Assembly: GCA_903900235.1 (NCBI GenBank) | Contig: CAIUMH010000048.1 | Span: forward strand, 1 to 44,627 | From: an uncultured Actinomycetes bacterium | GTDB lineage: Bacteria > Actinomycetota > Acidimicrobiia > Acidimicrobiales > RAAP-2 | Direction: 5' to 3' | DNA: 44,627 nt | Shown: in pieces, positions 15,826 to 32,292 of the stretch | Numbering within the stretch: the first letter of the stretch is position 1 | How the letters are laid out: each line of letters starts with the position of its first letter | The notes under the pieces: generated by a model | The model's input: only the letters and a program-made list of their open reading frames with translations | Told to the model about the DNA's origin: nothing | Databases searched by the model: none | Made by a program: the position numbers and the translations under genes

Positions 15826-16434
15826 TCAGCCATGAGATCGGACGTCGTCGATCCACGACCACAGTGCATCAACGGCCACGCCCAGCTCATCGAGTCCCGC
15901 TTCGTTTACCAGCACGTAATCAGCTTCGGCCACTCGCTCCTCTCGGGAGATCTGGGCGGCGATGCGAGCTCGGGCATCAGCTTCAGGGAATGCTCGATAG
16001 CGGATCAGGCGCTCCACTGCGACCTCAATGGGGCAGTCGACCACCACAACTTGATCAATGACCATCGTCTCTCGATGGATCGGACGAAGCAACGGGATCG
16101 CCAAGACGACCAAGGCGTCGGTTTCAGCCAATGCGCGTTGTCGCTCGATCATCTCAATCCCAATAGCTGGATGCGTGATGGCGTTCAGGGCTGCCACTGA
16201 TGCTTCGTCTGCAAAGGCAACGTCGGCGAGCGCCTGACGATCGATGGTCAGATCGGCCGAAAGTATGCCTGATCCGAACCGTTCTACCAATGGCCCATAG
16301 GCCGGTCCTCCCGGGACAACTACGGCCCTTGCCACTTCGTCTGCATCGATCAGCCACGCTCCGCGCTCCACCAGCAGGTCAGCGACTGCCGACTTGCCTG
16401 ACCCAATGCCACCCGTGAGGCCGATGCTGAACAT
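15826..16434 (-). CDS. coaE: dephospho-CoA kinase
   Basis: Phosphorylates dephospho-CoA at the 3'-hydroxyl of the ribose, the last step of coenzyme A synthesis. The 202-residue protein has the P-loop GLTGGIGSGKS at the start, LIDADEVAR with the catalytic Asp, and PLL-R in the lid region, followed by RYRAFPEADARARIAAQ. Its ATG shares one base with the methyltransferase stop (TGATG). It is a short single-domain form without the C-terminal extension seen in mycobacterial CoaE. Its place before uvrB is the conserved actinobacterial order. Confidence 0.96.
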   Translation of the reverse strand: MFSIGLTGGIGSGKSAVADLLVERGAWLIDADEVARAVVVPGGPAYGPLVERFGSGILSADLTIDRQALADVAFADEASVAALNAITHPAIGIEMIERQRALAETDALVVLAIPLLRPIHRETMVIDQVVVVDCPIEVAVERLIRYRAFPEADARARIAAQISREERVAEADYVLVNEAGLDELGVAVDALWSWIDDVRSHG

Positions 16435-17231
16435 CAGCGACGACGAGGCTTGCGTGCCACCGCAAAGAGCACCAGCGTGGTCTCATCGATCTGTTCAGTG
16501 ACCGACCAGTCGTCGATGGTGATGCCCTTGGTGCCACCGGAGTCGCCCCGAGCAATCAACTTGTAGGCGATCGGCAGCAATCGGGTATAGGCCGCCACGT
16601 ACCACGACTGAGGGATTTTGTGACGCAGGTCGAACACATCGAAAGCCAGGACCTTCCGAGCCTTCGCCCGGCGCTCGGCAAAGTCCGCCTTCACCCAATC
16701 GACGGCATCTACTCCGCCCAGCCAGACCTCTTCGAAATGCTCTTCGAGCATGGTGCGCAGCTCCGCAGCATCGAACAGGTGGAGGTGGAAGGGGTTTTCA
16801 AAGTCTGCTGGCTCATTCGGAGTCAGCACATAGACGGCGCCGTCATCGGCGACGACTCGAGCCATCTCGGCCACATGGAGGGCCGGTTCATGGAAGTGCT
16901 CGATCAAGTGAGACGAGCACACCGACTGGAATGACCCTGCGGAAAAGCCGAGCTTGAACGCATCCATCTGCGCCACCTCGAAGGATTCACCACCAAATTT
17001 GCTGCGGGCGAATTCCACGGCGTCCGCGGAGTAGTCCACACCGATCACTGGTCGATCCGGTGCAGCAAGTGTGATCGACTCGAATCCTTGTCCACAGCCA
17101 ACATCGAGCAGCGGACCAGGCCCCAACTTCTCTCGAACGGCTCGATAGCCAGCGGCGTGGAGGGTCAGCAGCGAATCAGGAGTGACGCCCTGCTGGGGTC
17201 GCTCACCGGTCAAACGTGCGTTCTCAGACAT
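16434..17231 (-). CDS. class I SAM-dependent methyltransferase
   Basis: A 265-residue predicted cytoplasmic methyltransferase of the Methyltransf_11/25 type. Motif I is LLDVGCGQGFES near residue 42. Motif II is GVDYSADAV. The post-I region has SSHLIEHFHEP and a C-terminal strand TLVLFAVARK. The substrate cannot be read from sequence. ATG 17231 has a good GGAGG site 8 nt upstream. Its stop overlaps the coaE start, so it heads the coaE-uvrB-uvrA operon. It is divergent from the aftD-like gene, and a role in envelope glycan or lipid modification is possible but only inferred from position. The segment YTRLLPIAYKLIARG could be weakly membrane-associated. Confidence 0.8.
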   Translation of the reverse strand: MSENARLTGERPQQGVTPDSLLTLHAAGYRAVREKLGPGPLLDVGCGQGFESITLAAPDRPVIGVDYSADAVEFARSKFGGESFEVAQMDAFKLGFSAGSFQSVCSSHLIEHFHEPALHVAEMARVVADDGAVYVLTPNEPADFENPFHLHLFDAAELRTMLEEHFEEVWLGGVDAVDWVKADFAERRAKARKVLAFDVFDLRHKIPQSWYVAAYTRLLPIAYKLIARGDSGGTKGITIDDWSVTEQIDETTLVLFAVARKPRRR

Positions 17232-17289
17232 CGTCAGGGCCTCCCGAGCCCTCAGCGCGGCCCCTCTGTTCGGTTCCGGGTGCGTGACT

Positions 17290-17296
17290 TACACTA
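17290..17296. promoter_or_regulatory. overlapping divergent -10 elements
   Basis: TACACT on the plus strand, and TAGTGT read from the same bases on the minus strand, both fit the TANNNT -10 consensus. They lie between the divergent methyltransferase and AftD-like genes. A weak -35-like TTCGGT is 15 bp upstream on the plus strand. Polymerases firing in the two directions would compete. No operator is recognised. Confidence 0.35.
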
Positions 17297-17358
17297 CAGC
17301 GGCACGCCATGGATCTCCGGGGACACCGGTCTCGATCACTGGGGCTGCCGAGCTGATC

Positions 17359-20300
17359 ATGACCACCCTTCCCGCCGACACCGACACTGACCACGCGACA
17401 GCGACGGCACGAAGCGAGAGTCGCCGCTGGCCCGGTCGGACGTGGTTGGCCGTTGAGGTTCTCATCTTGACCCTCTCGGCGTATCTTCCGCTCCTGCTGA
17501 CGCGACGGGGTGTCAGTACTCCGGATACGAAGACCTACTTGTATCTCAATCCTGGCCGATTCGTCCCACAGGTGGCTTCAATGTGGGATACGACCGTCGG
17601 GGCTGGCACCGTCACCCACGAGTACGTCGGCTATCTCTTCCCCATGGGCCCGTTCTTCTGGGGACTTCATGCCGCTCAGGTCCCACTCTGGGTGGCCCAG
17701 CGGCTCTGGCTGGGATCAATCCTCTTCGCCGCCGGCACCGGTGTCGCCTACCTCTGCCGTCGAATCAACCTCACCGGACCAGCAGCCCTCGTCGCGGGCC
17801 TCCTCTACATGCTGTCGCCGTATCTCCTCCAGTACGCCGGTCGTATCTCGGTCATTCTCTTGCCGTGGGCTGGCCTTCCGTGGTTGCTCGCCTTCACCAT
17901 GCTGGCGCTGCGTCGTGGCGGCTGGCGCTACCCCGCACTCTTTGCTCTCGTCGTTCTCACGGTCAGCTCGATCAACGCCTCCTCGATCATCTACGTGGGT
18001 CTCGCTCCCGTCCTGTGGATTCTGTTTGCTCTTTGCGTCCAACGCTCGGTCTCTCTTCGGCGGGCACTCATCACCACCGCGCAGATCGGTGTGCTGACAG
18101 TGGCGGTCAGCATCTGGTGGATCGTCGGTCTCGCCATCGAAGCCGGCTACGGCGTAAACGTCCTCAAGTACACCGAGACCGTCTCCGCCACCTCAGGCAG
18201 CTCGAGTGCCGCCGAGATTATTCGGGGACTCGGCTATTGGTACTTCTACGGTTTCGACCGCCTTGGACCATGGACCGAGTCCTCGGTGGTCTACACCCAG
18301 CATCTCCACGCGCTGATCCTGTCCTACGGGCCGCCGTTGCTTGCGCTGGTTGCCGCTGCCTTCTTTCGCTGGAGGCTCCGTGCGTACTTCATCCTCCTGA
18401 TTGTTGTCGGCATGATGTGGTCCGTGGGGGCACACCCCTACGACAGCCCGACACCCTTCGGTGGACTGCTCAAGACCTTCATGACCACTACGACTGCCGG
18501 TCTCGCCATGCGCTCGACCGATCGAGCCACTCCTCTGGTGATCCTCGGACTCGCCGTCCTGCTCGGGGCAGGCCTCTGCGCGCTGTGGCGGAGGTTTCCA
18601 AGAGTTTCGGTGCCCGTTGCCCTGCTCTGCATCGTGATCATCCTGGCGAACGCCGCTCCGATTGCCCGAGGCGACACCATCGCCAACAATTTCTCTCAAC
18701 CCGATCACCTCCCTCGGTCAGAGCAGGCGGCCATCGGGTATCTCAATAGCGTGAATCCCGGGACTCGGGTGATGGCCATCCCCGGCAATGACTTCGCCTC
18801 GTTCCGATGGGGCAACACCGTCGATGCCCCTCAGCCCGCCTTCCTGACGAGGCCATTCCTGATCCACGAGCAGCAGGTGATGGGTTCGATGGCGACTGCA
18901 GACATGCTCTATGCCCTCGATGATCCGATCCAACAGGCCACCGCAAACCCCGCATCATTCGCTCCGATCGCCAGACTCATGAGCGTCGGAAACCTGCTCG
19001 TCGAGTACGACACGCAGTACGAGCATTTCGGTCAGCCCCATCCACTCACTGTCGCCTCATTGCTCTCCCCAACGCCGACTGGGTTGACCGGCCCGGTCAA
19101 CTTCGGTAAGCCGTCGGTCAATCGATCCATGTTCTCGACGCTCGACGAACAGGATCTTGCAGCTCCTGATCCGAATCGCAAACTCCCGAAGCTGGCCGTT
19201 TACGGAGTCACTGCCCCTCGACCACTGCTTCGCACGGAGTCCTCCGCTGGGGCGCTGGTGGTGGCTGGGGATGGTACGGGTCTCGTCAATCTCGCCCCCA
19301 CAGGACTACTCGACACCAATAGCTCTGTGTTCTATTCGGGAACACTCGCCAACGAAAAGGCACGGCTCCACGCACTGGCGTCCAATGGCGCCGCTCTCGT
19401 CATCACTGATTCGAATCGCAAGCAGGGATTTCGCTGGGACACGATCTCCTCGACAGCCGGGGCGACGGAGACTGCAACAGAGGACCCCCGTCGGACGGAC
19501 CCGACCGATGCCCCCATCGAACTGTTCCCGGCTGCACGTCTGAGCGCCAAGACGATGGCAACGTACCTGGGAGCGACGAGTGTGAGTGCCAGCAGCTACG
19601 GATCCCCCTTCTCGTTCATCCCTGAAGATCGCGCCTTCAGCGCCCTCGATGGAAATTTTGACACTGCATGGAGAACCGGGATCTTCGCCAATCCGCGTGG
19701 ACAGTGGTGGCGTGTCGCATTCGCTCAGCCGGTGACGACGGATCACATACGTCTTGTTCAGCCGCAGAACGGATCGGTCTCGCGGTGGATCACCAAGGTG
19801 GGACTCTCCTTCGACGGTGGGCCTATCGAGAAGGTTGATCTCACCGCAATATCGAGAGCTTCCACTGGACAATCGGTCAACTTTCCGAGTCGATCCTTCC
19901 GTAGCCTCAAGATCACCATCTTGCATACCAGTAACGACAAGGCCCGTGGCTCTGCCGCTGCCGAAGTCGGATTCGCCGAGGTGCAGATCCCCGGTCACAC
20001 CGTGACCGAGGTCCTCACCATGCCCACAGATCTGACTCGCTCTATCGGGAGCGCCTCAATCGCCAACCGCTTGACGCTTTCGATGACCCGGTGGAGGTCC
20101 AGCCCGTATCCGACCAGGTTTGACGCAGAACCCACCATTGAGCGCTTGGTAACAATTCCTACGGCGCGTCGCTTCACACTCTCAGGCGCTGCCACTCTGT
20201 CCACGCTGATCCCCGATGATCAGATCGACCGACTGATCGGTCGGCCTGCCGGGACGGCTGGACAGGTCGACGCCTATTCGAGCGGACGGCTACCAGGATC

Positions 20301-22065
20301 GCTCTCCAATCGAGCCTCGACGACCCTCGACCACGATCCGTCGACCTACTGGCAACCCGGGTTCGCCACTGCGAGGGCCAAGGACTCTTGGCTCCAGTAC
20401 AACCTTGCCCAACCAACCACGATCTCGCAGCTGCCCATCACGATCGTCAACGATGGTCGCCATTCGGTGCCGACCTCCGTGACCATCCTCACTGAACAGG
20501 GCAGCCGGACGCTGACCATTCCTCCGGTGGCAGATCAGAAGACCCCTGGGGCAACGGTGGCTGTGTCTCTCGCCGTCAATCCACCACTTACTGGGCGTCA
20601 GGTTCGTCTGACGTTCCCCACGTTCCGTAAGGTCTCGTCGGCCAGTTTCAACACCACCATCCCACTCGATCGTCCAATCGGTATCGCCGAAGTTGGGCTG
20701 CCGGGAACGATCGCACCAACGATCCCATCGGCCGTCCCTTCCAATTGTCGCTCTGATCTTCTCTCCATCGATGGAGCCCCAATCGACCTAGCTATCTCAG
20801 GGTCCACCACTGATGCTGTTCGCCTCCGTCCGCTCACGATCGAGCCGTGCGGTAACTCGATCGGCGGCATTGACCTCACTGCTGGTCGCCATGTGATCTC
20901 GACCGCTCTTGGTCATCAACCCACCACCGGATGGAACCTCGACCAGGTGACCCTCGATTCAGCACCCGGAGGAGCGGCCGGGCCGGCCCCGGTGGCCGGA
21001 TTAATCCCAGCCACGACCGCTGGATTCGCACCAACCAGCACCACGCATCTCGACACCACGACCGGCACGATCACCGCCCATCAGGTCACCGGTCCCTTCG
21101 AGGTGGTGCTTGGGGAGAGCATCAACACCGGATGGACCGCCACCGCCACCGTGCTCGACCCCCATGGTCGACCCGGGCGGAAGATTGACCTCGGCACTCC
21201 AGAGCTCATCGATGGCTATGCCAATGGATGGCATGTGACGAAGGCCAACCTCTCTGCGCTTGGTGCCGACTCCTCGCCCGGACATCCACCCACCTCGGTC
21301 CGCATCGATCTTCGATGGACACCGCAGTCCTCGATGAATATCGCACTGGCACTCTCCGCGGTCGCCTCATGTGCGTGCCTCGTGCTGGTGGCGGTTCCCC
21401 GTCGTCGGCGCCGCCGATCGGCCGATGTCCAGGCTGAAACAACCCGAAGCGAAAGCCAAGACAATGAGGCAGTCGAGCGACCGTTGACCCGCCAGCAGAT
21501 CCAATCGTTGCGCCGGGCTCACGCCGACAGTGTTCCCACCCGAGATCGGGATTCACTCGGATCAGGTGACCTCGTGCTCCCCCTCCTGGTGTCGCCCCCG
21601 GAGCCCCCGGTGTTGATCTCTCCAATCACACCATCGATCCGACGACCGTCCTGGATCGTCATCGTCCTCGCTGCGCTGTTCGCTGGCGGTTTGGCTGCTG
21701 CGGTGTCGACTGCACTCTGCGCCCTCGTGGTTGGGACCTCAGTGGCGCTGTGCCTTGCGGTGCGTCACCTTCGAGCTCTCCCTGGCCTGGTTGCGATCGG
21801 CTTCTTTGTGGCAGCCGTGGTGAACGTGATCCGCCTTCAGTCCATTGAGCACTTCGGTCCCGGCGACTGGCCGAGCCACTTCACCTCTGCCGGTGCGCTG
21901 ATGTGGGTGGCCATCGTGCTTGTGGGGGCCGACGGTGTCATCGGGGCTCTTGGTGACTCGCCTCCACAGGCACGGGGCGATGCTCGATACGCCGAAACTC
22001 AGGACCCATCCGTCGAGGCCACGTCGACAGACGAATCGCTGCCTGAGGACAACACGGACGACTAG
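17359..22065 (+). CDS. AftD-like alpha-(1->3)-arabinofuranosyltransferase (DUF3367 family), GT-C fold
   Basis: A 1568-residue integral membrane transferase. Mycobacterial AftD adds arabinofuranose from decaprenyl-phosphoarabinose to envelope arabinan outside the cell. The N-terminal half shows the family signature: a first membrane helix, then STPDTKTYLYLNPGRF with the GT-C acidic residue at about D56, a conserved Trp-Asp, and EYVGYLFPMGPFFW at about 88-102. Many membrane helices follow to about residue 440. Two discoidin/F5-8C-like carbohydrate-binding regions are likely near residues 740-880 and 960-1110. A helix near 1327-1347 is followed by six arginines, a polar linker, and three or four further helices (1433-1530). 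The protein is longer than mycobacterial AftD, which I recall as about 1400 residues. ATG 17359 is chosen because the frame's earlier start overlaps the divergent methyltransferase; its ribosome site is weak. Donor and acceptor here are inferred. Confidence 0.85.
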   Translation: MTTLPADTDTDHATATARSESRRWPGRTWLAVEVLILTLSAYLPLLLTRRGVSTPDTKTYLYLNPGRFVPQVASMWDTTVGAGTVTHEYVGYLFPMGPFFWGLHAAQVPLWVAQRLWLGSILFAAGTGVAYLCRRINLTGPAALVAGLLYMLSPYLLQYAGRISVILLPWAGLPWLLAFTMLALRRGGWRYPALFALVVLTVSSINASSIIYVGLAPVLWILFALCVQRSVSLRRALITTAQIGVLTVAVSIWWIVGLAIEAGYGVNVLKYTETVSATSGSSSAAEIIRGLGYWYFYGFDRLGPWTESSVVYTQHLHALILSYGPPLLALVAAAFFRWRLRAYFILLIVVGMMWSVGAHPYDSPTPFGGLLKTFMTTTTAGLAMRSTDRATPLVILGLAVLLGAGLCALWRRFPRVSVPVALLCIVIILANAAPIARGDTIANNFSQPDHLPRSEQAAIGYLNSVNPGTRVMAIPGNDFASFRWGNTVDAPQPAFLTRPFLIHEQQVMGSMATADMLYALDDPIQQATANPASFAPIARLMSVGNLLVEYDTQYEHFGQPHPLTVASLLSPTPTGLTGPVNFGKPSVNRSMFSTLDEQDLAAPDPNRKLPKLAVYGVTAPRPLLRTESSAGALVVAGDGTGLVNLAPTGLLDTNSSVFYSGTLANEKARLHALASNGAALVITDSNRKQGFRWDTISSTAGATETATEDPRRTDPTDAPIELFPAARLSAKTMATYLGATSVSASSYGSPFSFIPEDRAFSALDGNFDTAWRTGIFANPRGQWWRVAFAQPVTTDHIRLVQPQNGSVSRWITKVGLSFDGGPIEKVDLTAISRASTGQSVNFPSRSFRSLKITILHTSNDKARGSAAAEVGFAEVQIPGHTVTEVLTMPTDLTRSIGSASIANRLTLSMTRWRSSPYPTRFDAEPTIERLVTIPTARRFTLSGAATLSTLIPDDQIDRLIGRPAGTAGQVDAYSSGRLPGSLSNRASTTLDHDPSTYWQPGFATARAKDSWLQYNLAQPTTISQLPITIVNDGRHSVPTSVTILTEQGSRTLTIPPVADQKTPGATVAVSLAVNPPLTGRQVRLTFPTFRKVSSASFNTTIPLDRPIGIAEVGLPGTIAPTIPSAVPSNCRSDLLSIDGAPIDLAISGSTTDAVRLRPLTIEPCGNSIGGIDLTAGRHVISTALGHQPTTGWNLDQVTLDSAPGGAAGPAPVAGLIPATTAGFAPTSTTHLDTTTGTITAHQVTGPFEVVLGESINTGWTATATVLDPHGRPGRKIDLGTPELIDGYANGWHVTKANLSALGADSSPGHPPTSVRIDLRWTPQSSMNIALALSAVASCACLVLVAVPRRRRRRSADVQAETTRSESQDNEAVERPLTRQQIQSLRRAHADSVPTRDRDSLGSGDLVLPLLVSPPEPPVLISPITPSIRRPSWIVIVLAALFAGGLAAAVSTALCALVVGTSVALCLAVRHLRALPGLVAIGFFVAAVVNVIRLQSIEHFGPGDWPSHFTSAGALMWVAIVLVGADGVIGALGDSPPQARGDARYAETQDPSVEATSTDESLPEDNTDD

Positions 22066-23252
22066 CGCTTCGACGAGATGGCCAACTGCTCGAGCGCCGT
22101 TTGCGCTGTCGCGTCCCAAGAGAAGTGTTCAGCCCACGAAAGCGCACCGTCCTGGAGCGTCCTTCGGAGTCGTTCATCGGTGAGAACCTCGATGATCCCA
22201 GTCGAAAGGGAACTCACATCATCGACGAGGATCCCTGAGTGGTAGTGGCTGACTGCATCACGATGGCCGGCAATATTGGTGGCCACACTCGGCGTGGCGC
22301 ACGCTGCCGCTTCCGTAAGCGTCATACCCCAGCCCTCGCGCAGTGAAGCTGACGCGACGACCCAAGCCTGTTGATACCACGAAATCAATTTGTCTTCCTC
22401 GACGAATCCGGGCATTGACAACCACGTGTCGGCACCCAGCGAGCGTCGAAGTGCCTCAAGAGCAGGCCGCTCATAGCCCTCGCCGATGATCACCGCTTCG
22501 AGGTCAGGCACCCGGCGGCGGACTTGCGCCAATTCCTTGATGAGCAGGTCGACTCGTTTGACCGGGACAAGGCGCCCGACGGCCACGACAAGTGGGCGAT
22601 CATGGCGGTTCGAGCCGGGTCGGTATCGACTCGAGATCCCAGGTGGAGCAACCACGACATGATCAGCCGAAAGGCGAAGTCGATCAACGATCTCGTCGCG
22701 TGATGATGCCGACAAGGTCACGATTCGCTCTCGACGGTAGAAGGGTGGAGCCAATCGACGTTCGATGGTGTCGCCGAGGGATCCGAGCAGTCCGGGCAGC
22801 GTCATTTGCCACATCTCGTCGTGCACATGGTGCAGCACTGTGATGCGAGGTCCCCGGAACCACACTGGACTGAAAAAGGGCATCCCGTTCCAGATCTCGA
22901 CCATGGCCGAACCCGGGTCTCGACGGGTCGACAGCCCTCCACCGATCACCGAGGGGAACACTCCGTAGCGTCCACTGCGACGTTCGGCGCGGTATCCACT
23001 GCGTTGCACCGACGAACCTTGGCCGGCGATCCCAGACGTGCGCTGGGTCACCTCGATTCCAGCAGCCGCCCATCGCTTAGCGATCTCATGGGCGTGCAGC
23101 TCAGATCCTCCAGCCTCTGGATCATCAAGATCCCGCCAGGCCACCATGTGGATTCGTTCAATGCCGGAGCCAGAGGCAATCTCCGCCAACCGACCAGGAC
23201 CGGTACTGACGAACCGATCCTCAGGGCTGTCGGTGCTGCCACGATCTTCCAC
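22062..23252 (-). CDS. GT4-family glycosyltransferase
   Basis: A 396-residue GT-B glycosyltransferase, predicted to act at the inner face of the membrane with a nucleotide-sugar donor. The N-terminal domain begins at about residue 34 with IHMVAWRDLDDPEAGGSE, a loop typical of this family, and LHHVHDEMW follows. The C-terminal domain starts at VVAVGRLVPVKR and has the E-x7-E donor site in REGWGMTLTEAAACATP. The start is GTG 23252, so about 30 residues precede the core; a later start is possible. The gene converges on the AftD-like gene and the two share a CTAG, each ending in TAG. The flippase gene is 60 bp upstream in the same direction. Confidence 0.85.
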   Translation of the reverse strand: MEDRGSTDSPEDRFVSTGPGRLAEIASGSGIERIHMVAWRDLDDPEAGGSELHAHEIAKRWAAAGIEVTQRTSGIAGQGSSVQRSGYRAERRSGRYGVFPSVIGGGLSTRRDPGSAMVEIWNGMPFFSPVWFRGPRITVLHHVHDEMWQMTLPGLLGSLGDTIERRLAPPFYRRERIVTLSASSRDEIVDRLRLSADHVVVAPPGISSRYRPGSNRHDRPLVVAVGRLVPVKRVDLLIKELAQVRRRVPDLEAVIIGEGYERPALEALRRSLGADTWLSMPGFVEEDKLISWYQQAWVVASASLREGWGMTLTEAAACATPSVATNIAGHRDAVSHYHSGILVDDVSSLSTGIIEVLTDERLRRTLQDGALSWAEHFSWDATAQTALEQLAISSKR

Positions 23253-23312
23253 GGTTGTCCGCCATCTCCGGATGCTCAGGTGAAACGCCGAGGATAGTAG
23301 GACGGGCGCCGA

Positions 23313-24863
23313 TCAGGGAGAGATGACCGGTCGCTTCTTTCGGTGAAGGGTCACGAAGCTCGCAATCACCACACCAAGTAAGACGACTTGGACGATCAGG
23401 TCATTGCGGGCGGTCGTCACTGGACTCCCATGCGCGATCACCACAGCGACAGTGGCACTTACTGCCCCGACGAGCAGCAGCAGTGAGATCCAGCGCCATC
23501 CGATCGCCAAAAGGTACATGGTCAAGATCACCGTGAAGCTCAGGCACACCATGGCCACCACGAGCGGAGCGAAGGCCTCTTGAGCGCCGAGATAGCGCGG
23601 CGAGAACACCAGTCGCAGCAGCAACGAGGGGAAGAACTCAGAGACGATCAATAGAAGACCCGCAGGGACACTGAGCAGCAACAATGCCACCGCCGCCTGA
23701 CGCAGTGCGTGGCTCCCCTGTCGCCAACGGATAGCGGCTTCCGGCAGGAGATAGCTTCCGAGGACCACGGCTCCGTAGACGATGGCCTTGGACGCCACCG
23801 AGACCGCTGCATACGAACCACTCATCCCAGGATTGTCGCGACCGAGGACGATCACATCGACATTCTGAAGCACGGCAAGCATGGCAAGCACGCTGAGGGC
23901 CACCGTGAGGTCAAGGATCATCTCAACCTTGAGTCCTCGGGGCGCCACCATGCGGGGGTCGCTCTTGAGATGGTGCAACCAGACACGGCCCGCCACAATC
24001 GGATGCTGGACCCGCTTGGCAGCGCGGCTGAGTGGACTCTGCGGTGCGCCCTCCCCGAGTTCATGGTCCCAGGCCCGATCAGCCGACACCCTTGCCTGGA
24101 CGGCTGTCACGATCTCTGCCAACAGGACGCCCACTGCGATCCCCGAGGCACCGGTTCCCAGCGCCACGAACCCAATGATGCCGATCGTCCGTGCTCCTCC
24201 CTCAACCACCAGGTTCACGGCCAGCGTCCGATAATCACGGTGGGCCTGCAGGAGCCCACGATCGATGGAGAGAAGGATCCACACTGCTCCGGCCCCCACG
24301 ATGGCCACGACGCCGACGGCATTGGGTTGGTTGAGCAGCGAAGCCACCCACTCGCCGGCGATGACCATCACCACGAAGAACGCTGCGGTCACCAAGGTGC
24401 CCTGAGTATGGAGCCGCCGAGCCCAGTCACGCACCCGATTTGCATCGCCCGCCGTAGTCCACATCGTCACACGGCGGACGATGGCCACGATGATCGCTGA
24501 TCCGGGCATTGAGATGATCAGGAAGATTCCGGTCAGCTGATTCAGCAGCCCATAGTCGCGCGTCGTGAGAGCCCGAGCCACCAACACCGTGACCACGACG
24601 TTGATGCCATTGGCGAAGACACCGGCCAATGCCAGCGGGCCCGCCTGGAGGATCCCTGAACGGACAGAGTCGGACCCCACCTGCTCCTGCGTTGTCCCGC
24701 CAGGAAGCAGCAACTCTCCACCGAGAGACGGAGTGGGACCACCGGGTGACAGAGCGATGCTGCCCACCAGTCCTTCTGCCGCCGCCTCGAGCGCCTCAAG
24801 AGCCGATGGGGACTCGGAATCTCCATCGACTTGCGAGTGTGACGGCGTGTCGGCGTCAGACAT
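23313..24863 (-). CDS. MOP-superfamily polysaccharide flippase (Wzx-like)
   Basis: A 516-residue multi-pass membrane protein resembling oligosaccharide flippases, which move lipid-linked glycans to the outer face. A hydrophilic N-terminal tail of about 70 residues (Ser/Glu/Gly-rich) precedes the core. The core then has about 12-14 hydrophobic segments. Typical features are LALAGVFANGINVVVTVL followed by ARALTTRDYGLLNQ, and the mid-protein LQNVDVIVLGRDNPG with SVASKAIVYGAVVL. ATG 24863 has a GGGGGAG about 11 nt upstream. It lies between the GT4 gene and the FAD oxidoreductase gene, with short gaps, consistent with a glycan assembly operon. It could equally be a MurJ-like paralogue, but the context favours Wzx. 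Confidence 0.82.
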   Translation of the reverse strand: MSDADTPSHSQVDGDSESPSALEALEAAAEGLVGSIALSPGGPTPSLGGELLLPGGTTQEQVGSDSVRSGILQAGPLALAGVFANGINVVVTVLVARALTTRDYGLLNQLTGIFLIISMPGSAIIVAIVRRVTMWTTAGDANRVRDWARRLHTQGTLVTAAFFVVMVIAGEWVASLLNQPNAVGVVAIVGAGAVWILLSIDRGLLQAHRDYRTLAVNLVVEGGARTIGIIGFVALGTGASGIAVGVLLAEIVTAVQARVSADRAWDHELGEGAPQSPLSRAAKRVQHPIVAGRVWLHHLKSDPRMVAPRGLKVEMILDLTVALSVLAMLAVLQNVDVIVLGRDNPGMSGSYAAVSVASKAIVYGAVVLGSYLLPEAAIRWRQGSHALRQAAVALLLLSVPAGLLLIVSEFFPSLLLRLVFSPRYLGAQEAFAPLVVAMVCLSFTVILTMYLLAIGWRWISLLLLVGAVSATVAVVIAHGSPVTTARNDLIVQVVLLGVVIASFVTLHRKKRPVISP

Positions 24864-24916
24864 GGTCGGCGTCGCTCCCCCACAGCTGCGGCCCCACTTG
24901 GACTTCGCTCATGGGC

Positions 24917-26410
24917 CTAGTGACCCGTGGTGCTGTCGCGCCGAGGAAGGATCGGAGCGTCGCGACCAGTTCCTCCAGTCGATGGGCCCGAGGCAGTCTC
25001 GTGGTATTCCTCTTCCACATTGACCGCCCAGATGTCGTGGTTGGCACCGTGCAGGTTTTCGACGGTCAGCATCGCTGTGTACATCGAGTGGTCCTGGTTG
25101 TTGTACTTGTGCATGCCGTTGCGGCCAACGAGATGGACGTTGGGAGCTTCGGCATCGATCCACGCACAGATCGTGGCCACATTGTCCTTGTACTCGAAGT
25201 CGTAGTAGGGATACGCCTTCGGGATACGCATCACGTAGCCCATTTCGACATCCTCGGCTCGGACGAGTCCGAGCGTCTCAAGCTCTTTCGACCCGAGGGC
25301 TATCAGTTCCTCGTCCGACATCGACCAGATGTGATCGTCCTCAAAGACGAAGTACTCGAGACCCAGGCACGTGCGGCCGTCCTTGACCATAAAGGGCGAC
25401 CAGGATCCGAAGTTCTGGATTCGGCCGACCTCGACCTCGGATGCGTGGATGTAGATCCAGTTGTCCGGAAAGCCCTTGTCTTCCGGGATGACCAAGGCAA
25501 CGGTCAGAAAGTCGCGGTAATGCAGATCATCCCCGGCTGCGAGCACAGGAGGCGGAGGAGCCGGGGCGAAGGCACGAACAAGGTGATTCATAGGCATCGT
25601 CGAGATCACATGGGCCACCTCATGGTCAACCTCTTGGCCGTCCGGCCCGACCACCGTCACCGAGGTCGCCATCCCCTCGGTCACGTTGATGGCGACCACG
25701 CGCGTCCTCATGGCGACGGTTCCTCCGGCGGCCTCCACCAGTTGCTGACAGCGCTCCCACATCATCCCCGGCCCGTACTTTGGGTACTGGAACTCCTCAA
25801 TGAGGCTGGTGATGTCCGTCTGCTTCCGCTTGGGTGTCAGGGCGTTGATGATGGCATTGCCAAGAGATAGACCCTTCACGCGCTGTGCCGCCCAGTCGGC
25901 CGGCATGTCCTTCACGGGAACGCCCCAGACTTTCTCGGTGTAGGTCTTGAAGAACCGCCGATAGAGGCGCCACCCAAAGCGAGCTACGAGCCAGTTCTCG
26001 TAATTCGACTGATCCTTGGGTGGGCGAATCTGGGCCCACGCATACGAAAGCACGCTGCGGATGGCCTCGAGGATCCCCATGTTGCGCAACGCATTCGACG
26101 CCTTCAACGGGTAGTCGTAATACTTGCCGTCGTAGAAAATCCGACTCATCCGGGGACGGAGCAGGAAGTCCTCGTCGGGCAGGATCTCATGCCAGAGATC
26201 CTCGACTGGCTGCACCTTGGTGAAGAAGCGATGGCCTCCAATGTCGAACCGCCAGCCATCTCGTTCGACAGTCCGGCTGATCCCTCCGACCACCTTGTCG
26301 GCCTCGAAGACAATGACCTTGTCTCCGCGCTTGACTAGCTCATAGGCGGCAGTCAGTCCCGCCGGCCCTGCGCCGATGATTGCAATTGGTAGGCCTTGGG
26401 GGCGGTCCAT
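24917..26410 (-). CDS. FAD-dependent oxidoreductase, UDP-galactopyranose-mutase / protoporphyrinogen-oxidase-like
   Basis: A 497-residue flavoprotein. The dinucleotide-binding [13 protein letters not shown] begins at residue 13 and is followed by the FAD ribose acid in VIVFEA, the GG motif ([22 protein letters not shown]), and a C-terminal FAD segment ([19 protein letters not shown]). The overall plan resembles amine-oxidase-fold proteins often encoded beside glycosyltransferases, and distantly UDP-galactopyranose mutase. I do not claim Glf activity. The tail after about residue 470 is polar and disordered. ATG 26410 has GAGGA 7-8 nt upstream. It is transcribed with the neighbouring glycosyltransferases, so a sugar-nucleotide or lipid-linked sugar substrate is likely but unproven. 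Confidence 0.8.
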
Positions 26411-26479
26411 GGGTGAATCCTCGCTGATGACGTCCGAAGAGACCTTAGTGCCGAGGCTCGGATGATTCCGGGAACCATC

Positions 26480-27625
26480 TCATGGAACGAGATAGTCAGC
26501 AAAGACCAGCACGCTCGTCAACGCCAAGCCCGCAGCCAAGACCAACAAGACACCGATCCGAACCGTTCTGCGGCCGAGCCAACCCGCCGCCACGAGAAAC
26601 AGGGTGGGAACGGCCAACAGGTAGCGCTCGAAACTGTCGAGGTTTTGTCCTCCCAGCGCCAAGGCCAAGATCCCGACCGCATAGACCGTTGCCGACAGCG
26701 GAAGTTTCCGAACTCCAAGCGCGACGGCCACCAGCGCCACCGCCACCCACGGAAGATGGAGGAGCGCACCAAGGTGGCCGTGGGCGGCCAAGGACACCCC
26801 ATGGAGGACTCCAGTGATCGGATTGGTCAGGCTCCCGTGGTGCCCAGCCTCGGTCTGCACTTTCAGCGGAGCCAACGCGTCGCCAAATGCGGATCGCACC
26901 CACAGGAGGTAGGCGCCAGCACCGAGCAACGGACTGCACAACGCAACGATCGAGGCCACCATTGCGACACCCGTGCTTCGCCGCCGCCACGCCTCAATGG
27001 CAATTGGGATGACAAGGAGGACGCCCACCGGACGGGTGGCACCGGCGAGCGCACCGAGGACGGCAATCACTAGCCAAGCTCCGGTGCTCGGCGACGACCG
27101 CCCGGCCGGTCGGTACACGACAGCCAAAGCCGCAGCGACGAGCACGACCAAGAGCGGCTCGGAATAGCCCAGCACCGTGGCAACGGCACCGGGCACAAGA
27201 CACAACAGCCAGATTGCTGTGGTCCTCCGCCGGGCATCGAAGGCCAAGGAGGCTCCCAATTGGTCAATGGCAATCAACGCTGCCCACCACAGGAGGCTCG
27301 CCCCTCCAACAAGCGCCCAGGACGTCGGCACGCCAAGGAGGTGGACCCCTCGAACCATCTCCGGCCACAGCGGGAAGAAGCGCGTGGACTCTCGACCGAG
27401 GGGAAGGTACCCATGGCCGGCGATGGCTCGGTACCAACCGGCGTCCCAGCCGAGCAGGCCTTGATCAATTCTCGACTGAGCAGTGGCCTTGTGGATCCAC
27501 CCATGCGCCACCGCCTGAGACGCCACGAGATACGCGCCCAGAACGAGGGCCCGAGAAGCCAACCAAGCAGGAGCCGTCGCCCGAAGCGACGCACTGAGTG
27601 ACGGCCGCCCGGACGCTGCGCTCAC
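26480..27625 (-). CDS. PIG-V-like mannosyltransferase family membrane protein
   Basis: A 381-residue GT-C-type membrane protein. The early loop has WDAGWYRAIAGHGY, matching the WD-x-WY-x-IA-x-xGY signature of PIG-V (GPI mannosyltransferase 2) relatives in bacteria, with the likely catalytic Asp. RFFPLWPEMVR follows, then about ten further hydrophobic helices and a Glu/Arg-containing SFERYLLAVP near the C-terminus. GTG 27625 overlaps the stop of the GT39-like gene as GTGA. The family uses polyprenyl-phosphate sugars on the outer face of the membrane. The sugar here is not shown by the sequence. Confidence 0.8.
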   Translation of the reverse strand: MSAASGRPSLSASLRATAPAWLASRALVLGAYLVASQAVAHGWIHKATAQSRIDQGLLGWDAGWYRAIAGHGYLPLGRESTRFFPLWPEMVRGVHLLGVPTSWALVGGASLLWWAALIAIDQLGASLAFDARRRTTAIWLLCLVPGAVATVLGYSEPLLVVLVAAALAVVYRPAGRSSPSTGAWLVIAVLGALAGATRPVGVLLVIPIAIEAWRRRSTGVAMVASIVALCSPLLGAGAYLLWVRSAFGDALAPLKVQTEAGHHGSLTNPITGVLHGVSLAAHGHLGALLHLPWVAVALVAVALGVRKLPLSATVYAVGILALALGGQNLDSFERYLLAVPTLFLVAAGWLGRRTVRIGVLLVLAAGLALTSVLVFADYLVP

Positions 27626-29277
27626 GGAGCGATCTTCTTCTTCTGCGGGATCGGAGGAGAGGGTGGATTGAACTGCGTGAGGTTCATGGACTGGAAATAC
27701 TCATAGGGGTGAGCGTTCACCCACTGATGTCCGCCCCATCTCGGGCGTCCGAGGAAGGTGGACGCCACGAATGAACAGGTGCTCTGGTACGGGCCATAAC
27801 CCGTGGACCACACCAACCACACGCTGTGGCCATCCACTCGATGAGCGATGTCCTTGACGAATCGAGCAGGACTCGTCGAACGGATGGCGGCGAGGTAGTC
27901 CACCCAGTTGATGAACCGAGGGTTATCGAGCCGAGGATAGGAAAGGGCCGTCAGGCCTGACGACGCTGGAATCTCTCGCATCACGGCAGGACCGAGCTGG
28001 TCCGGACAGAACAACACAAAATCGCCGGGCTTCGACTCCTTGGACAGGACGGCCACGATCTGCGCAGCTTGGGACCGCTGGGTCGTCCGCCACTCGAGTC
28101 CTTGGGTGAGAAGCGCTGCGGCAAGGACGGTGATGACTCCGAGACGCACCCATCGGGCTCCGATCGCTTGAGTTCCCACCGCCATGAGCACCACGAGCGG
28201 CACGAAGATGACAGAGGCATAGCGGGGGACGAAGGTGCTCTTCGAGAGATGAGCTCCGATGATGCCAAGCACCAGGGTGCCGAACACGATCCAGGCGAGA
28301 AACCGACCCTTCGGGCGGCCGGCCAGATCAATCACGATACGGCGCCGATTCTTCGGGATCCCGAAGATGGCCAAGACCACGAGGGCCACGGTGAGCAACT
28401 CGAGCAGCGAGAGACTGGGACCCGCAGCCGTGGGCAATGCTCCTTGGTTGTCATAGAAATGGAGGATCCCCGTCACGATGATCTGAAGATCGGGCACCCT
28501 GGCCCAGGGGGTACCGGTGTGTGCGGACTGGAACGAGAAGATGTTCAGCCAGGGAAGAAATGTGAGGCCCGCCAGGCCGAGGCCGCATAGGCCCACGAAG
28601 CCCTGACGACGGTGTTGACCACCGACCACCACCATCACTACGAACCACGCACCGAGAGCCCCACACAAAAAGAAGCTCCAGTAGTGCGTGTACAGGAGCG
28701 CCGCCGCGCTCACGGACAGCCCCAGGGTTCGGATCACCGTGGGCCGTTCCATGAGGAGCGTGAGCATCCAACCCAGGACGACCACCAGCAACATCACAAG
28801 GGCGTACATCCGAGCTTCGGTGGCGTAATACGTGGCGAACGCAGATGCCGCGAAAATGCCACTCGCGATCACTGCTGGCTCAAGTCCCCAAATGCGTCGG
28901 ACCACGAAGAAGAGTCCGACCAGCGTCAATAGTGAACACACTCCTGACAGAGACCGCACGGCGAGATCGGATTCCCCGAAGACCTGCATCCACCAATGGA
29001 GCAGCACGTAATACAGCGGAGGCGCACCGTCGCGCTGAAGTGCGCCGGGAATCTGACCGATTGGCAACTTCGCGATGTTGACGGAGAGAGCTTCGTCGAG
29101 CCAGAGCAGCGACGTCGTCGCAAACCTCAGCCACACACCGACCAGCACGACTATGGCAGTCACCGCCATGGCGATGCCAGCCGTCACTCCTGAGAGCGGC
29201 GTCACCCTGAGTTCTCGCCAAGACTCCCATGGGTCGGATTGGACCGACTGCTCGGCCTGTTCGATGTCAATGCTCAC
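27622..29277 (-). CDS. GT39-like membrane glycosyltransferase (GT-C)
   Basis: A 551-residue membrane protein. After a polar start and one helix it has LLWLDEALSVNIAKLP, the Asp-Glu loop typical of ArnT/PMT-type GT-C enzymes. GAPPLYYVLLHWWMQ follows, then repeated hydrophobic helices to about residue 400. A soluble C-terminal domain follows, with YPRLDNPRFINWVDYL and a YGPYQS segment, ending in PQKKKIAP. It would transfer a sugar from polyprenyl phosphate outside the membrane. GTG 29277 has no Shine-Dalgarno site; a TATCAT element 8 nt upstream suggests a leaderless transcript. It is the first gene of the minus-strand envelope operon. Confidence 0.84.
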   Translation of the reverse strand: MSIDIEQAEQSVQSDPWESWRELRVTPLSGVTAGIAMAVTAIVVLVGVWLRFATTSLLWLDEALSVNIAKLPIGQIPGALQRDGAPPLYYVLLHWWMQVFGESDLAVRSLSGVCSLLTLVGLFFVVRRIWGLEPAVIASGIFAASAFATYYATEARMYALVMLLVVVLGWMLTLLMERPTVIRTLGLSVSAAALLYTHYWSFFLCGALGAWFVVMVVVGGQHRRQGFVGLCGLGLAGLTFLPWLNIFSFQSAHTGTPWARVPDLQIIVTGILHFYDNQGALPTAAGPSLSLLELLTVALVVLAIFGIPKNRRRIVIDLAGRPKGRFLAWIVFGTLVLGIIGAHLSKSTFVPRYASVIFVPLVVLMAVGTQAIGARWVRLGVITVLAAALLTQGLEWRTTQRSQAAQIVAVLSKESKPGDFVLFCPDQLGPAVMREIPASSGLTALSYPRLDNPRFINWVDYLAAIRSTSPARFVKDIAHRVDGHSVWLVWSTGYGPYQSTCSFVASTFLGRPRWGGHQWVNAHPYEYFQSMNLTQFNPPSPPIPQKKKIAP

Positions 29278-29359: not shown

Positions 29360-29394
29360 CCAAGAATCACGCAGCGTTGAGGGGGCATAACAAC

Positions 29395-30342
29395 ATGGCG
29401 AAGTTCTTGCTCAAGAGGCTGCTTGCTCTCATGGGCATTTTGTTGCTGGTGTCGCTCGGCATCTTCATGCTCGTACACCTACTCCCGGGTGATCCGACGA
29501 CGACCATCCTCGGTCCCAACAACACGGCCCACAACCGTGCCGTCCTGATGCAGCAACTGGGGCTCAACAAGCCGATCTGGTCACAATATTTTCTGTGGCT
29601 CGGCAATATTTTCCACGGCAATCTTGGGCAATCGTTCATCACCCATCAGACCGTCACCAACACATTGGCCAATGCGTTCCCGATTGACCTCGAGTTGATC
29701 GTGATCTCTCAGGTCGTGGCTCTGTCTGTGTCGATCCCCTTGGCCATCGCCTCAGCAAAGAAGCCCAACGGCTTGCTCGACCGAGTGTCGACAACAACCA
29801 GCTTCGCATTGCTGGCGCTGCCCCCATTCATCATCATCGTGTTCGCTGTGCTGATCTTCTCGATCCACTTCCACGTGTTCCCTGGACCCGGCAGCTACGT
29901 TCCGTTCTCCCAGGATCCGATCAGCAACCTCCACACCATGATCCTGCCCAGCCTCGTCCTGGCCATCGGGTCGGTCGTTATCTACTTCCGGCTGTTGCGT
30001 GGTGACCTGATCACCACCCTCCAAGAGGAGTTCATTGTCATGGCGCGCTCGAAAGGGCTGTCGAATCGCTACATCATGTGGCGGCATGCCCTTCGGCCCT
30101 CCTCGCTCTCACTACTTGCAGCCGCAGGACTGAACATCGGCGGCCTCGTGGCCGGGGCCTTCGTGGTCGAGTTCCTTCTGGCCATTCCGGGTCTCGGTTA
30201 TGCGCTGGTCAACTCAATCCAGCAGGTTGACTACCTCGCCGTTCAGGGTGTCACCCTGTTTGTGGCTGTCGTCGTCGTCGTCCTCAACTTCATCATCGAC
30301 TTCCTGTTCACCATCGTCGACCCGAGGATTGCCCGTGAGTAG
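29395..30342 (+). CDS. peptide ABC transporter permease, DppB/OppB type
   Basis: The first membrane subunit of a dipeptide or oligopeptide importer. The 315-residue protein has an N-terminal helix (KRLLALMGILLLVSLGIF), the family segment HLLPGDPTTT, about six membrane helices, and the cytoplasmic EAA loop EEFIVMARSKGLSNRYIMWRH that docks on the ATPases. The C-terminal AIPGLGYALVNSIQQVDY is typical of DppB. ATG 29395 has GAGGGGG 9 nt upstream; a TTG at 29377 in frame is less likely. The stop overlaps the next gene by 8 bp. Confidence 0.93.
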   Translation: MAKFLLKRLLALMGILLLVSLGIFMLVHLLPGDPTTTILGPNNTAHNRAVLMQQLGLNKPIWSQYFLWLGNIFHGNLGQSFITHQTVTNTLANAFPIDLELIVISQVVALSVSIPLAIASAKKPNGLLDRVSTTTSFALLALPPFIIIVFAVLIFSIHFHVFPGPGSYVPFSQDPISNLHTMILPSLVLAIGSVVIYFRLLRGDLITTLQEEFIVMARSKGLSNRYIMWRHALRPSSLSLLAAAGLNIGGLVAGAFVVEFLLAIPGLGYALVNSIQQVDYLAVQGVTLFVAVVVVVLNFIIDFLFTIVDPRIARE

Positions 30343-31231
30343 CACCACCGATGCCGTTTCATCAGCGGCAACCGAGTCCAGCGTCGGGGTTTCCCGCGCA
30401 CCCAAAAAGAGAATGAGGAAGGCGCTCGGGACGATCTTTTGGATCTCGATCTGCTGGATCGGTGTCGTGTTCCTGCTCGCCATCGTGGCCTCATGGATCG
30501 GACTCGACGATCCCAACAACGGGGACTTCTCGCTGATCAACTCCAGTCCTTCGTGGTCCCACCTCTTTGGAACCGACGATCTCGGGCGCGACATCCTTAG
30601 CCGGGTCATCTATGGGGCACGGGTCTCGCTGATCGTTGGATTCGGCGCTATGGGCCTCGGAATGAGCATTGGTGGCACCCTCGGCATGATCGCCGCGTAC
30701 CGTCGTGGTGCCGTCGACACGCTGGTCTCAGCTGCGTCCTACGTGATGCTCGCGTTCCCTGCGCTGGTCGCCGTGATCGCCATCGTGGCCTTCTGGGGTC
30801 ACGACATCTGGAAGATCACGATTATCGTCGGCGTCGCCAGTACCCCATTGGTCTACCGGGTCATCCGAGCAGCCACCCTGTCCTACGCGACGCGAGAGTT
30901 TGTGACCGCTGCGAAGGCGCAGGGGGCCACCGATACTCGAATCCTGAGTCGCGAGCTGCTCCCAAATGTGCTCCCCACCATCATCTCGTACTTCCTCATC
31001 GGCGTGGCGACCGTCATCATCCTCGAAGGCGCGCTCGCCTTCTTGGGCCTCAGCGTGCCGGCTCCGACGGCATCGTGGGGCAACATGATCAACGAGTCGA
31101 GGACCTACTTGAGCGATAACCCGTGGCTTGCACTCTTCCCCTCTATGGCGATGTTCCTTTTCCTGGTTGCCCTCAACCTTGTGGGCGACGCCCTCCGTCA
31201 GTCCTTCGACGCCCAGGAGTCCAAGCTGTGA
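30335..31231 (+). CDS. peptide ABC transporter permease, DppC/OppC type
   Basis: The second membrane subunit. I place the start at GTG 30335, which overlaps the dppB stop and gives 298 residues. The longer frame from 30200 lies inside dppB. A polar N-terminus and KKRMRKALG lead into the first helix. Family features are LFGTDDLGRDILSRVIYGAR, the EAA loop REFVTAAKAQGATDTRILSREL, and the C-terminal AFLGLSVPAPTASWGNM. The stop overlaps the next start as GTGA, so the operon is translated as a coupled unit. Confidence 0.92.
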   Translation: MSSTTDAVSSAATESSVGVSRAPKKRMRKALGTIFWISICWIGVVFLLAIVASWIGLDDPNNGDFSLINSSPSWSHLFGTDDLGRDILSRVIYGARVSLIVGFGAMGLGMSIGGTLGMIAAYRRGAVDTLVSAASYVMLAFPALVAVIAIVAFWGHDIWKITIIVGVASTPLVYRVIRAATLSYATREFVTAAKAQGATDTRILSRELLPNVLPTIISYFLIGVATVIILEGALAFLGLSVPAPTASWGNMINESRTYLSDNPWLALFPSMAMFLFLVALNLVGDALRQSFDAQESKL

Positions 31232-32292
31232 GTAATGAGCAGTCCTCAATCGCGTTCCCTTCGACCGAAGAGCTCTCGGGGCCCCTGCTGAGGGTCAAGG
31301 ACCTCCGCACCACCTTCTCGACCCCGCGAGGATCGCTGACTGCTGTCGACGGTGTTTCTTTCGAGCTCGGACGCGGCGAGACCCTTGGCATCGTCGGAGA
31401 ATCAGGTTCGGGCAAGACCGTGCTCGCCCGATCGGTCATGGGACTGCTGCCCCGCTCCAACACGACTCAGACCGGCTCAATCCTGTTTGAAGAGACCGAG
31501 ATCGTCGGCGCACAAGAAGCAACGCTCCGAGAAATCTGGGGCGCCAAGATCGCCATGGTGTTCCAGGACCCCATGACCTCCCTCAACCCGGTCGTGCGGA
31601 TTCAGCGCCAGATTACTGAGTCACTCCGTCTCCACACCTCAATGGACCGGGCAGAGGCCAAGGCAACGGCCATCTCACTGCTCAGTCAGGTTGGAATCCC
31701 CTCCCCCGCCGAGAGAGTGCGCGCCTATCCGTTCCAGCTCTCCGGCGGCATGCGCCAACGGGTGACGATTGCCATCGCCCTGGCTTGCTCGCCCCGACTA
31801 CTGCTGGCAGACGAACCCACTACCGGCCTCGACGTAACGGTCCAAGCCCAGATTCTCGACCTTCTCTCGTCGCTGCAGTCGGCCCGTCAAATGGCGGTGA
31901 TCTTGGTCACTCACGACCTCGGAGTGGTAGCCACACGGACCGATCGAATCGCTGTGATGTATGCAGGCCATATCGTTGAGATGGCCTCCACTAAGCGACT
32001 GTTTGCGAGCATGGCCATGCCCTACACGCAGGCACTCCTTCGTTCGACCCCTCGGATCTCCCAGCCGAGCCACACGAGGCTGATCGCCATCGATGGTCGG
32101 CCACCGGACCTCATCAATCCCCCGTCGGGATGTGCGTTCGCACCTCGTTGCACGTATGCAACCGATCAGTGCCGAAGCGAGAGGCCGCCACTGCGCACCG
32201 CCCCTGAAGACCCCACTCACCTCTTCGCGTGCTGGAATCCCCTCCAGACCGGTAACGCTGGGTCCATCACCACCGCCAAGGGAGAGAACTGA
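31228..32292 (+). CDS. peptide ABC transporter ATPase, DppD/OppD type
   Basis: One of the two ATPases that drive the importer. From GTG 31228 the protein has 354 residues. It has Walker [10 protein letters not shown], the Q-loop in [12 protein letters not shown], signature LSGGMRQR, Walker [13 protein letters not shown], and the H-loop VTHDLGVV. The C-terminal oligopeptide-transporter extension has [17 protein letters not shown] and two further cysteines, a four-Cys pattern that binds an iron-sulfur cluster in some OppD proteins. The stop shares a base with the next start (TGATG). Confidence 0.93.

Follow-up and report, generated by a model that had tools for sequence, protein, structure and literature searches.

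Arabinan derived from decaprenyl-phosphoryl-arabinose (DPA) is treated as a hallmark of the cell wall of Mycobacteriales, and the pathway that supplies it is a drug target. In the mycobacterial scheme, as excerpts of PMC11127046 and PMC12041299 describe it, polyprenyl-phosphoryl-arabinose is made inside the cell, flipped and used outside. For AftD an alpha-1,5 linkage is reported in an excerpt of PMC6034362, whereas Pfam names the family alpha-1,3; the same excerpt places AftD in a conserved syntenic region of Corynebacteriales, and the excerpt of PMC8698533 assigns TmaT, MmpA and MtrP of the corynebacterial locus to mycolate transport. Another precedent in the excerpts of PMC11127046 is GT136, a glycosyltransferase of the GT-C fold with a carbohydrate-binding module (CBM) that is able to use polyprenyl-P-ribose; according to the same source the O-antigen pentofuranose systems use a HAD phosphatase, and the mycobacterial Rv3807c is unrelated to the HAD family. 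Here we describe an AftD locus from an uncultured bacterium of the class Acidimicrobiia, a distant relative of the mycobacteria. The window analysed is a stretch of 44,627 nucleotides, the whole of contig C48 of a draft genome of 2.4 Mb that is 96.6 % complete. From its gene content we consider it reasonably probable that the locus belongs to an Emb-less, probably mycolate-independent system which puts D-arabinofuranose from a polyprenyl donor on a secreted envelope glycan.

The central gene lies in an open frame at positions 17182-22065 of the plus strand, encoding 1627 residues. The start at 17359 (Met60, giving 1568 residues) avoids overlap with the divergent methyltransferase gene. An earlier note on this DNA had named the product AftD and proposed profile searches with DUF3367 (AftD) and F5/8 type C models. 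Both gave scores over cut-off (PF11847, GT-C_AftD, 270.1 bits against 26; PF00754, F5_F8_type_C, 60.7 bits against 28.2), and CBM_AftD (PF24607) was barely above its own (27.4 bits against 27). In a search of the PDB, residues 85-1350 of the 1627 aligned with the solved AftD entries 6wbx and 6w98 (E ~6e-24), the similarity reaching past the GT-C domain. The STPDTK motif directly follows the first hydrophobic stretch, and its D115 and K117 (numbered in the 1627-residue frame) were the same in all 30 rows when the GT-C domain was aligned. Judged by profile and alignment, the product of 17359-22065 is an AftD homologue, far beyond chance, and the name given to it earlier holds on the PF11847 score and on the long match to solved AftD.

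Genes for the arabinose donor were found in the same genome, independently of the AftD locus, and an arabinan-like product is supported for that reason. A genome search returned four UbiA proteins, one of which is a DPPR synthase, and contig C53, a contig other than that of AftD, carries three consecutive genes for DPPR synthase, DprE1 and a DprE2-like short-chain dehydrogenase/reductase (SDR). The DPPR synthase scored 334 bits with NF008978 (cut-off 207), and DprE1 528.3 bits with NF053785 (cut-off 500) and E 2.9e-107 against the solved DprE1 4aut. The best family of the SDR was DprE2 (NF053786) at 248.2 bits against a cut-off of 250, which the homologue in genome G043 passed with 266.4. The earlier note had proposed an arabinan- or mannan-like polymer; the donor operon favours its first half, and no evidence was obtained for mannan. 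The arrangement is common in the class: of 51 genomes in which both DPPR synthase and DprE1 reached the levels used, 43 have the two within 200 bp. Among 23 donor loci, chosen for their known presence of DPPR synthase and DprE1, a DprE2-like gene was found in 22 and an adjacent HAD phosphatase in 11. In two respects the donor region of this genome may be described further. Its DprE1 has Ala at the Cys position of the 4aut motif GWNVCVDFPI, with the HGKNHH and AKDSR motifs retained; we take this Cys to be the covalent target of benzothiazinones. A NAGPA (phosphodiester glycosidase) protein is encoded near the donor operon, at 1231-2523 of locus L036, as in three relatives of the same family (L167, L168, L169).

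Across the class, AftD and the donor genes tend to occur together. AftD was found in 48 of 119 genomes of the class and in 60 of 396 of the phylum. Among cultured members, G027, presumed to be Ilumatobacter coccineus, has both AftD and DprE1, and AftD is present in Aciditerrimonas ferrireducens MV1 and Acidiferrimicrobium sp. IK. With DprE1 counted at more than 430 bits (the cut-off of 500 was passed by 50 of the 119; G067 and G006 lie between), it was present in 42 of the 48 AftD-positive and 10 of the 71 AftD-negative genomes (Fisher p 3e-16); for DPPR synthase the counts were 41/48 and 10/71. G107, which holds just pieces of DprE1 and DPPR synthase, was taken as negative, and G100 as negative for DPPR synthase, which is interrupted there at the end of a contig. 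At genus level, with 69 of 70 genera and a genus positive if any member was, the counts were 32/5/6/26 (p 1e-8); all these statistics correct for relatedness only in part. In family f2 the genes are also linked physically, DprE1 lying 4.9-23.5 kb from AftD in six of the eight AftD-positive genomes and on a separate draft contig in the other two. The order in G043 is HAD, DPPR synthase, DprE1, DprE2, GT4, one open reading frame and then AftD on the opposite strand, and in both G043 and G051 the homologue of the window's GT4 glycosyltransferase directly follows DprE2 on the same strand.

This GT4 is the most constant companion of AftD. It was compared between ten genomes of the class and ten presumed Mycobacteriales, all chosen among AftD-positive genomes; the latter come from families f54, f61, f49 and f81 and are so called because their AftD scores are 725-954 bits. 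The best match of the window GT4 was near aftD in all ten presumed Mycobacteriales; its distance to the AftD domain was 0.9-1.1 kb in five of them and 9-20 kb in the other five. One of them, G187, has a PgfA equivalog (337 bits, cut-off 160) between aftD and GT4, a second sign of its affiliation that it alone among the ten provides, PgfA being in our understanding a mycobacterial protein. When the GT4 of G187 was searched against the genome of the window, the window GT4 came first (145 bits, the next 65), and in the ten class genomes its best match was less than 4 kb from the AftD domain in nine and 17.6 kb away in G027. By these searches the window gene and the GT4 that presumed Mycobacteriales carry at or near aftD are reciprocal best hits. 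G197 and G314 have polA, rpsA and coaE around their aftD-GT4 pair, the same genes as in the window, and a second AftD copy in G110 is accompanied by its own GT4 homologue. The simplest account of the shared context would be one ancestral locus, and the pair appears to form a module of long standing in actinobacteria, retained at or near aftD in Mycobacteriales. The GT4 of the corynebacterial aftD locus is, we assume, the one named Rv0225; a search of open-licence literature for Rv0225 with glycosyltransferase returned nothing, by which absence in print is not shown.

The wider neighbourhood was compared in the best 80 of 577 confirmed AftD loci, many of which end at contig ends, so the counts are lower bounds and tilted to close relatives. 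Homologues of the GT4 were found in 59, of the methyltransferase in 43, of CoaE in 40, of UvrB in 36, of the flavoprotein in 24, of the flippase in 21, of the small GT-C enzyme in 18 and of the GT39-like enzyme in 14. The grouping, for which the earlier note had proposed a synteny check, thus recurs in relatives, with GT4 beside AftD as its most frequent element. Among 19 AftD loci of relatives, a GT4 homologue was nearby in 15 (one just 27 % identical) and a UGM-like homologue in seven. Within the best 80, GT4 also stood beside AftD in loci that gave no match to CoaE or UvrB (e.g. L106, L109, L115-L117). Matches to AT3 acyltransferases were found near AftD in loci of the window's class and of presumed Mycobacteriales alike. 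One AT3-SGNH acyltransferase lies between two AftD copies of G043 (L154, 15908-18082); its only NCBIfam match at E 1e-8 was the SucT model, at 100 bits far below the cut-off of 1275. A protein of about 579 residues (L043, 14711-16447) matched no Pfam family at E 0.001 and no NCBIfam family at E 1e-8; it is conserved in L045, L156, L158 and L160, next to GT4 or to the donor operon. The record titles of L092, L129 and L135 say Bifidobacterium breve; the AftD loci are of the class type, and the titles look wrong for these metagenome-assembled genomes.

In the phylum, the best AftD scores (494-954 bits) were in families f54, f61, f49 and f81, and all other genomes were below 340, some with just fragments. 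In a quick tree made with no bootstrap, the window copy falls within a class-only set of 36 rows (SH-aLRT 100), and groups with its own family (99). Acquisition of the window copy from Mycobacteriales by transfer was considered and is not favoured, given this class-only set. The class as a whole requires four changes on the tree, and one copy of G012 (L002) clusters with presumed Mycobacteriales. G012 has two AftD copies (L002, L051), yet no match to DPPR synthase or DprE1 at the levels used.

All six genes that the earlier note had grouped in an envelope-glycan locus were found as open reading frames at the places it gave; it had not mentioned the donor operon, the reciprocal link of the GT4 or the methyltransferase neighbour at 16434-17231, all three of which were found here. 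After uvrA-uvrB-coaE the order is methyltransferase, AftD, five glycan genes, a four-gene ABC transporter and rpsA-polA (Table 1). The five minus-strand genes (GT4, flippase, flavoprotein, small GT-C and GT39-like enzyme) are arranged as in an operon, with gaps of 60, 53 and 69 bp and one overlap of 4 bp. AftD and GT4 are transcribed towards each other, AftD and the methyltransferase gene away from each other. An SBP_bac_5 protein is encoded at 826-2559, distant from the ABC transporter genes.

Table 1 Genes of the AftD locus in the window, and DprE1 of the same genome
Feature	Position	Strand	Basis or remark
Class I SAM methyltransferase, divergent to AftD	16434..17231	-	PF08241 68.1 bits
AftD homologue	17359..22065	+	GT-C domain at the N-terminus, F5/8 type C (discoidin) domain, third AftD carbohydrate-binding module (marginal), four hydrophobic stretches at the C-terminus
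GT4 glycosyltransferase	22062..23252	-	PF00534 113.5 bits
Putative Wzx/MOP-type polysaccharide flippase, 516 aa	23313..24863	-	PF01943 26.4 bits, under cut-off 28.2
UGM-like flavoprotein (PRK07208 family), eukaryotic UGM type	24917..26410	-	NF005548 791.8 bits, cut-off 389
Small GT-C membrane glycosyltransferase ("PIG-V-like" in the earlier note)	26480..27625	-	GT-C fold, predicted structure
GT39-like GT-C enzyme	27622..29277	-	PMT_2 PF13231 35.5 bits, cut-off 26.1
Oligopeptide-type ABC transporter, two permeases and two ATPases	29377-33260		between glycan operon and rpsA
DprE1	L036 (own contig C53) 3358-4782

The flavoprotein resembles UDP-galactopyranose mutase (UGM), as the earlier note had suggested, by its fold and its kept active-site residues; its family, NF005548, carries only the name 'hypothetical protein'. 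Its nearest solved relatives are eukaryotic UGMs (profile against the Aspergillus fumigatus (Af) enzyme, E 1.7e-33). The UGM fold is present in its AlphaFold2 (AF2) model (mean pLDDT 82), which was closest to UGM 4dsg (Z 36.0; 2.7 A over 443 residues), followed by protoporphyrinogen oxidases at Z 33. Excerpts of PMC4192007 give active-site roles to His62, Arg176, Arg327, Tyr395 and Tyr429 of the Trypanosoma cruzi UGM. Their equivalents here, H60, R177, R330, Y400 and Y436, were identical in 27 of 27 homologues; the window residues were placed by alignment to the A. fumigatus UGM, and the matching of T. cruzi to A. fumigatus numbers is our own. The likeness to eukaryotic UGM (4dsg, 3ute) in fold and in the His, Arg and Tyr of the flavin/diphosphate site contrasts with differences elsewhere. 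Asn201 (Af N207) is replaced by Ile204, which is Ile in all 27 homologues, and for this reason we call the protein UGM-like and not UGM. Af Q107 and N163, which we take to have a role in nucleotide binding, correspond to Lys103 and Thr158, in columns that hold K/Q/R and N/T among the 27 homologues. The protein is probably a pyranose-furanose mutase, the sugar of which may differ.

The remaining products of the operon are less clearly defined. The flippase, with 11 hydrophobic stretches, may be assigned weakly. The GT39-like enzyme, in agreement with its earlier name, contains a PMT_2 domain over the cut-off, and its D61-E62 pair is invariant in 13 of 13 homologues; against the PDB its profile gave the O-mannosyltransferase TMEM260 at E 0.61, which is not significant, and PDB sequence searches with the alignments of the small GT-C enzyme, the GT39-like enzyme and the flippase gave nothing significant. 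For the small GT-C enzyme, earlier termed PIG-V-like, no Pfam family was matched at E 0.001, so that only its GT-C fold can be retained. Its AF2 model (mean pLDDT 90.9) gave 50 listed matches at Z 12-21, among them AftB at Z 16.2 over 320 residues, and W60-D61 was invariant in 19 of 19 homologues. Membership in the PIG-V family is not supported, for want of a Pfam match, and the fold list settles nothing: oligosaccharyltransferase (OST), ALG12 and ArnT (Z 20-21) ranked above GPI mannosyltransferase I (Z 16.6), and this above chain U of the GPI-transamidase (Z 14.1-14.8). The methyltransferase was considered as an orthologue of MtrP and this is likewise not supported, since its best match was at the aftD locus in just two of the ten presumed Mycobacteriales (G236, G266) and its second best in G154.

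The genes that accompany AftD in the mycobacterial wall were largely missing. Emb (PF04602) was found neither in the draft genome of the window nor in any of the 48 AftD-positive genomes of the class, AftA (PF12250) was missing from the draft genome and present in four of the 48, and canonical Glf (PF03275) was missing from the draft genome and present in one. The absence of wall genes from the window, which the earlier note had pointed out, extends to the draft genome for Emb, AftA and canonical Glf, while no search was made for AftB, AftC or mycolate genes. With Emb missing, and AftA and canonical Glf mostly so, the system differs from the arabinogalactan pathway known in mycobacteria. Emb-like matches in the class were limited to the AftD-negative G026 (L056 and L057; 104 and 44 bits). 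Searches of open-licence literature found nothing joining Acidimicrobiia with arabinan, with arabinose as whole-cell sugar or with DprE1, by which absence in print is not shown; among the papers listed for AftD, Acidimicrobi and Actinobacteria none contained AftD, and for DPA in non-mycolate actinobacteria only Mycobacteriales-type titles were listed.

The genes suggest the following route. The UbiA-type DPPR synthase would transfer ribose-5-phosphate to decaprenyl (polyprenyl) phosphate, a presumed phosphatase would strip the 5'-phosphate, and DprE1 with the DprE2-like reductase would epimerise the product to polyprenyl-phosphoryl-arabinose; the genes for the synthase, DprE1 and the reductase are those found on contig C53. 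As in the mycobacterial scheme, this donor would be made inside and flipped outward. In the cytoplasm the GT4 would add a sugar to a lipid-linked glycan, possibly from a furanose donor provided by the UGM-like flavoprotein, and the flippase would carry the lipid-linked glycan outward. Outside, to judge from family and fold, AftD would grip the glycan by its carbohydrate-binding domains and use the polyprenyl donor to transfer arabinofuranose, while other sugars may be added from polyprenyl-phosphate donors by the two smaller GT-C enzymes.

Several observations weigh against this route, besides the partial correction for relatedness, the low identity to characterised AftD, and the canonical Glf and AftA that are mostly missing on the acceptor side. 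No HAD phosphatase stands alongside the donor operon of this genome, and the AftD-DprE1 linkage in family f2 is probably one inherited arrangement that counts as one event. Five AftD-positive genomes (G012, G048, G068, G072, G075) lack both DPPR synthase and DprE1 at the levels used, and AftD may therefore use another donor there. For a cultured member of the class, Actinospongicola halichondriae, the excerpt of PMC12263773 lists rhamnose, ribose, mannose and galactose as whole-cell sugars and leaves arabinose unmentioned. Both of the latter points fit the idea that AftD transfers another pentofuranose or a hexose, such as ribofuranose as in GT136, mannose or galactofuranose, and that the DprE pathway serves a different enzyme. 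So do the precedent of GT136, a GT-C enzyme with a CBM acting on polyprenyl-P-ribose (PMC11127046, in excerpt), and the position of the window AftD, which shows no more than 25 % identity with the mycobacterial-type copy L002 across the GT-C domain and stands apart from the mycobacterial-type group in the tree. DprE1 and DprE2 would, however, turn a ribose donor into arabinose, DprE1 tracks AftD across the class, and in one family the donor set lies in the AftD-GT4 neighbourhood. With Emb in none and AftA in four of the 48 AftD-positive genomes, moreover, no alternative user of the donor is apparent there among the families searched, which did not include AftB and AftC. We regard transfer of another sugar as unlikely, although it is the strongest of the competitors.

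It would also weigh against the proposed arabinosylation by AftD that the donor operon of this genome is on a separate contig, that on three long contigs of other families (G110, G003, G083) the donor genes are 100-493 kb from AftD, and that ten AftD-negative genomes of the class have DprE1. All of this could be expected if DPA served another glycoconjugate, e.g. arabinan attached to protein, which has been proposed for the type IV pili of Pseudomonas aeruginosa, while the AftD locus made an unrelated capsule-like polymer; the linkage in six of eight AftD-positive f2 genomes and the strong co-occurrence make such a division of labour improbable in our view. Least probable of all is that no functional tie joins AftD to the minus-strand glycan genes and that they are neighbours by coincidence in an island of envelope genes between rpsA-polA and coaE-uvrB. 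AftD runs opposite to both GT4, with which it converges, and the methyltransferase gene, from which it diverges, so that they are not co-transcribed, and housekeeping genes are near AftD as often as several of its partners (CoaE and UvrB in 40 and 36 of the best 80 loci). Yet GT4 stays with AftD in the loci that gave no CoaE or UvrB match, a separate GT4 homologue accompanies the second AftD copy of G110, and the pair is within 20 kb in all ten presumed Mycobacteriales.

If AftD does transfer arabinofuranose here, a broader proposal can be put forward more tentatively: AftD, GT4 and the DprE pathway might be an arabinofuranosylation module of ancient actinobacterial origin, older than Emb, arabinogalactan and mycolic acids, with which Acidimicrobiia still build a chemically undescribed D-arabinofuranose envelope polymer and of which the GT4 near mycobacterial aftD would be part of the original core. 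This suggests that the machinery for attaching arabinose may have a longer history and a wider distribution than the waxy wall of mycobacteria. Such a system would offer a simpler setting, with AftD and donor enzymes, no Emb and mostly no Glf or AftA, in which to ask for the own role of AftD. It would point to a little-studied GT4 as the old partner of AftD, and would predict an arabinose-bearing polymer in Acidimicrobiia, whose AftD loci in this comparison mostly stem from uncultured bacteria.

Compared with the known systems, the locus is closest to that of mycobacterial and corynebacterial AftD (Rv0236c, NCgl2757; 6w98, 6wbx), with which it shares the GT-C and carbohydrate-binding domains and a GT4 within 20 kb. 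It differs in the low identity, in a CBM_AftD match just at cut-off, in the lack of Emb, AftA and canonical Glf in the genome, and in that a flippase, a UGM-like flavoprotein and two smaller GT-C enzymes form an operon. The DPA pathway (Rv3806c, DprE1, DprE2) has its counterpart in the three consecutive genes, of which DPPR synthase and DprE1 pass the NCBIfam cut-offs; the differences are a DprE2-like protein 2 bits short of its cut-off, the Cys to Ala change in DprE1, and a HAD phosphatase in 11 of 23 loci in place of the non-HAD Rv3807c. With the three-component pentofuranose systems of GT136, as far as the excerpts describe them, the likeness lies in a polyprenyl-P-pentofuranose derived from phosphoribosyl pyrophosphate (PRPP), in the HAD phosphatase of some relatives and in a GT-C enzyme with a CBM, whereas AftD belongs to another GT-C family and the window flippase, with its 516 residues and 11 hydrophobic stretches, is unlike their four-helix transporter.

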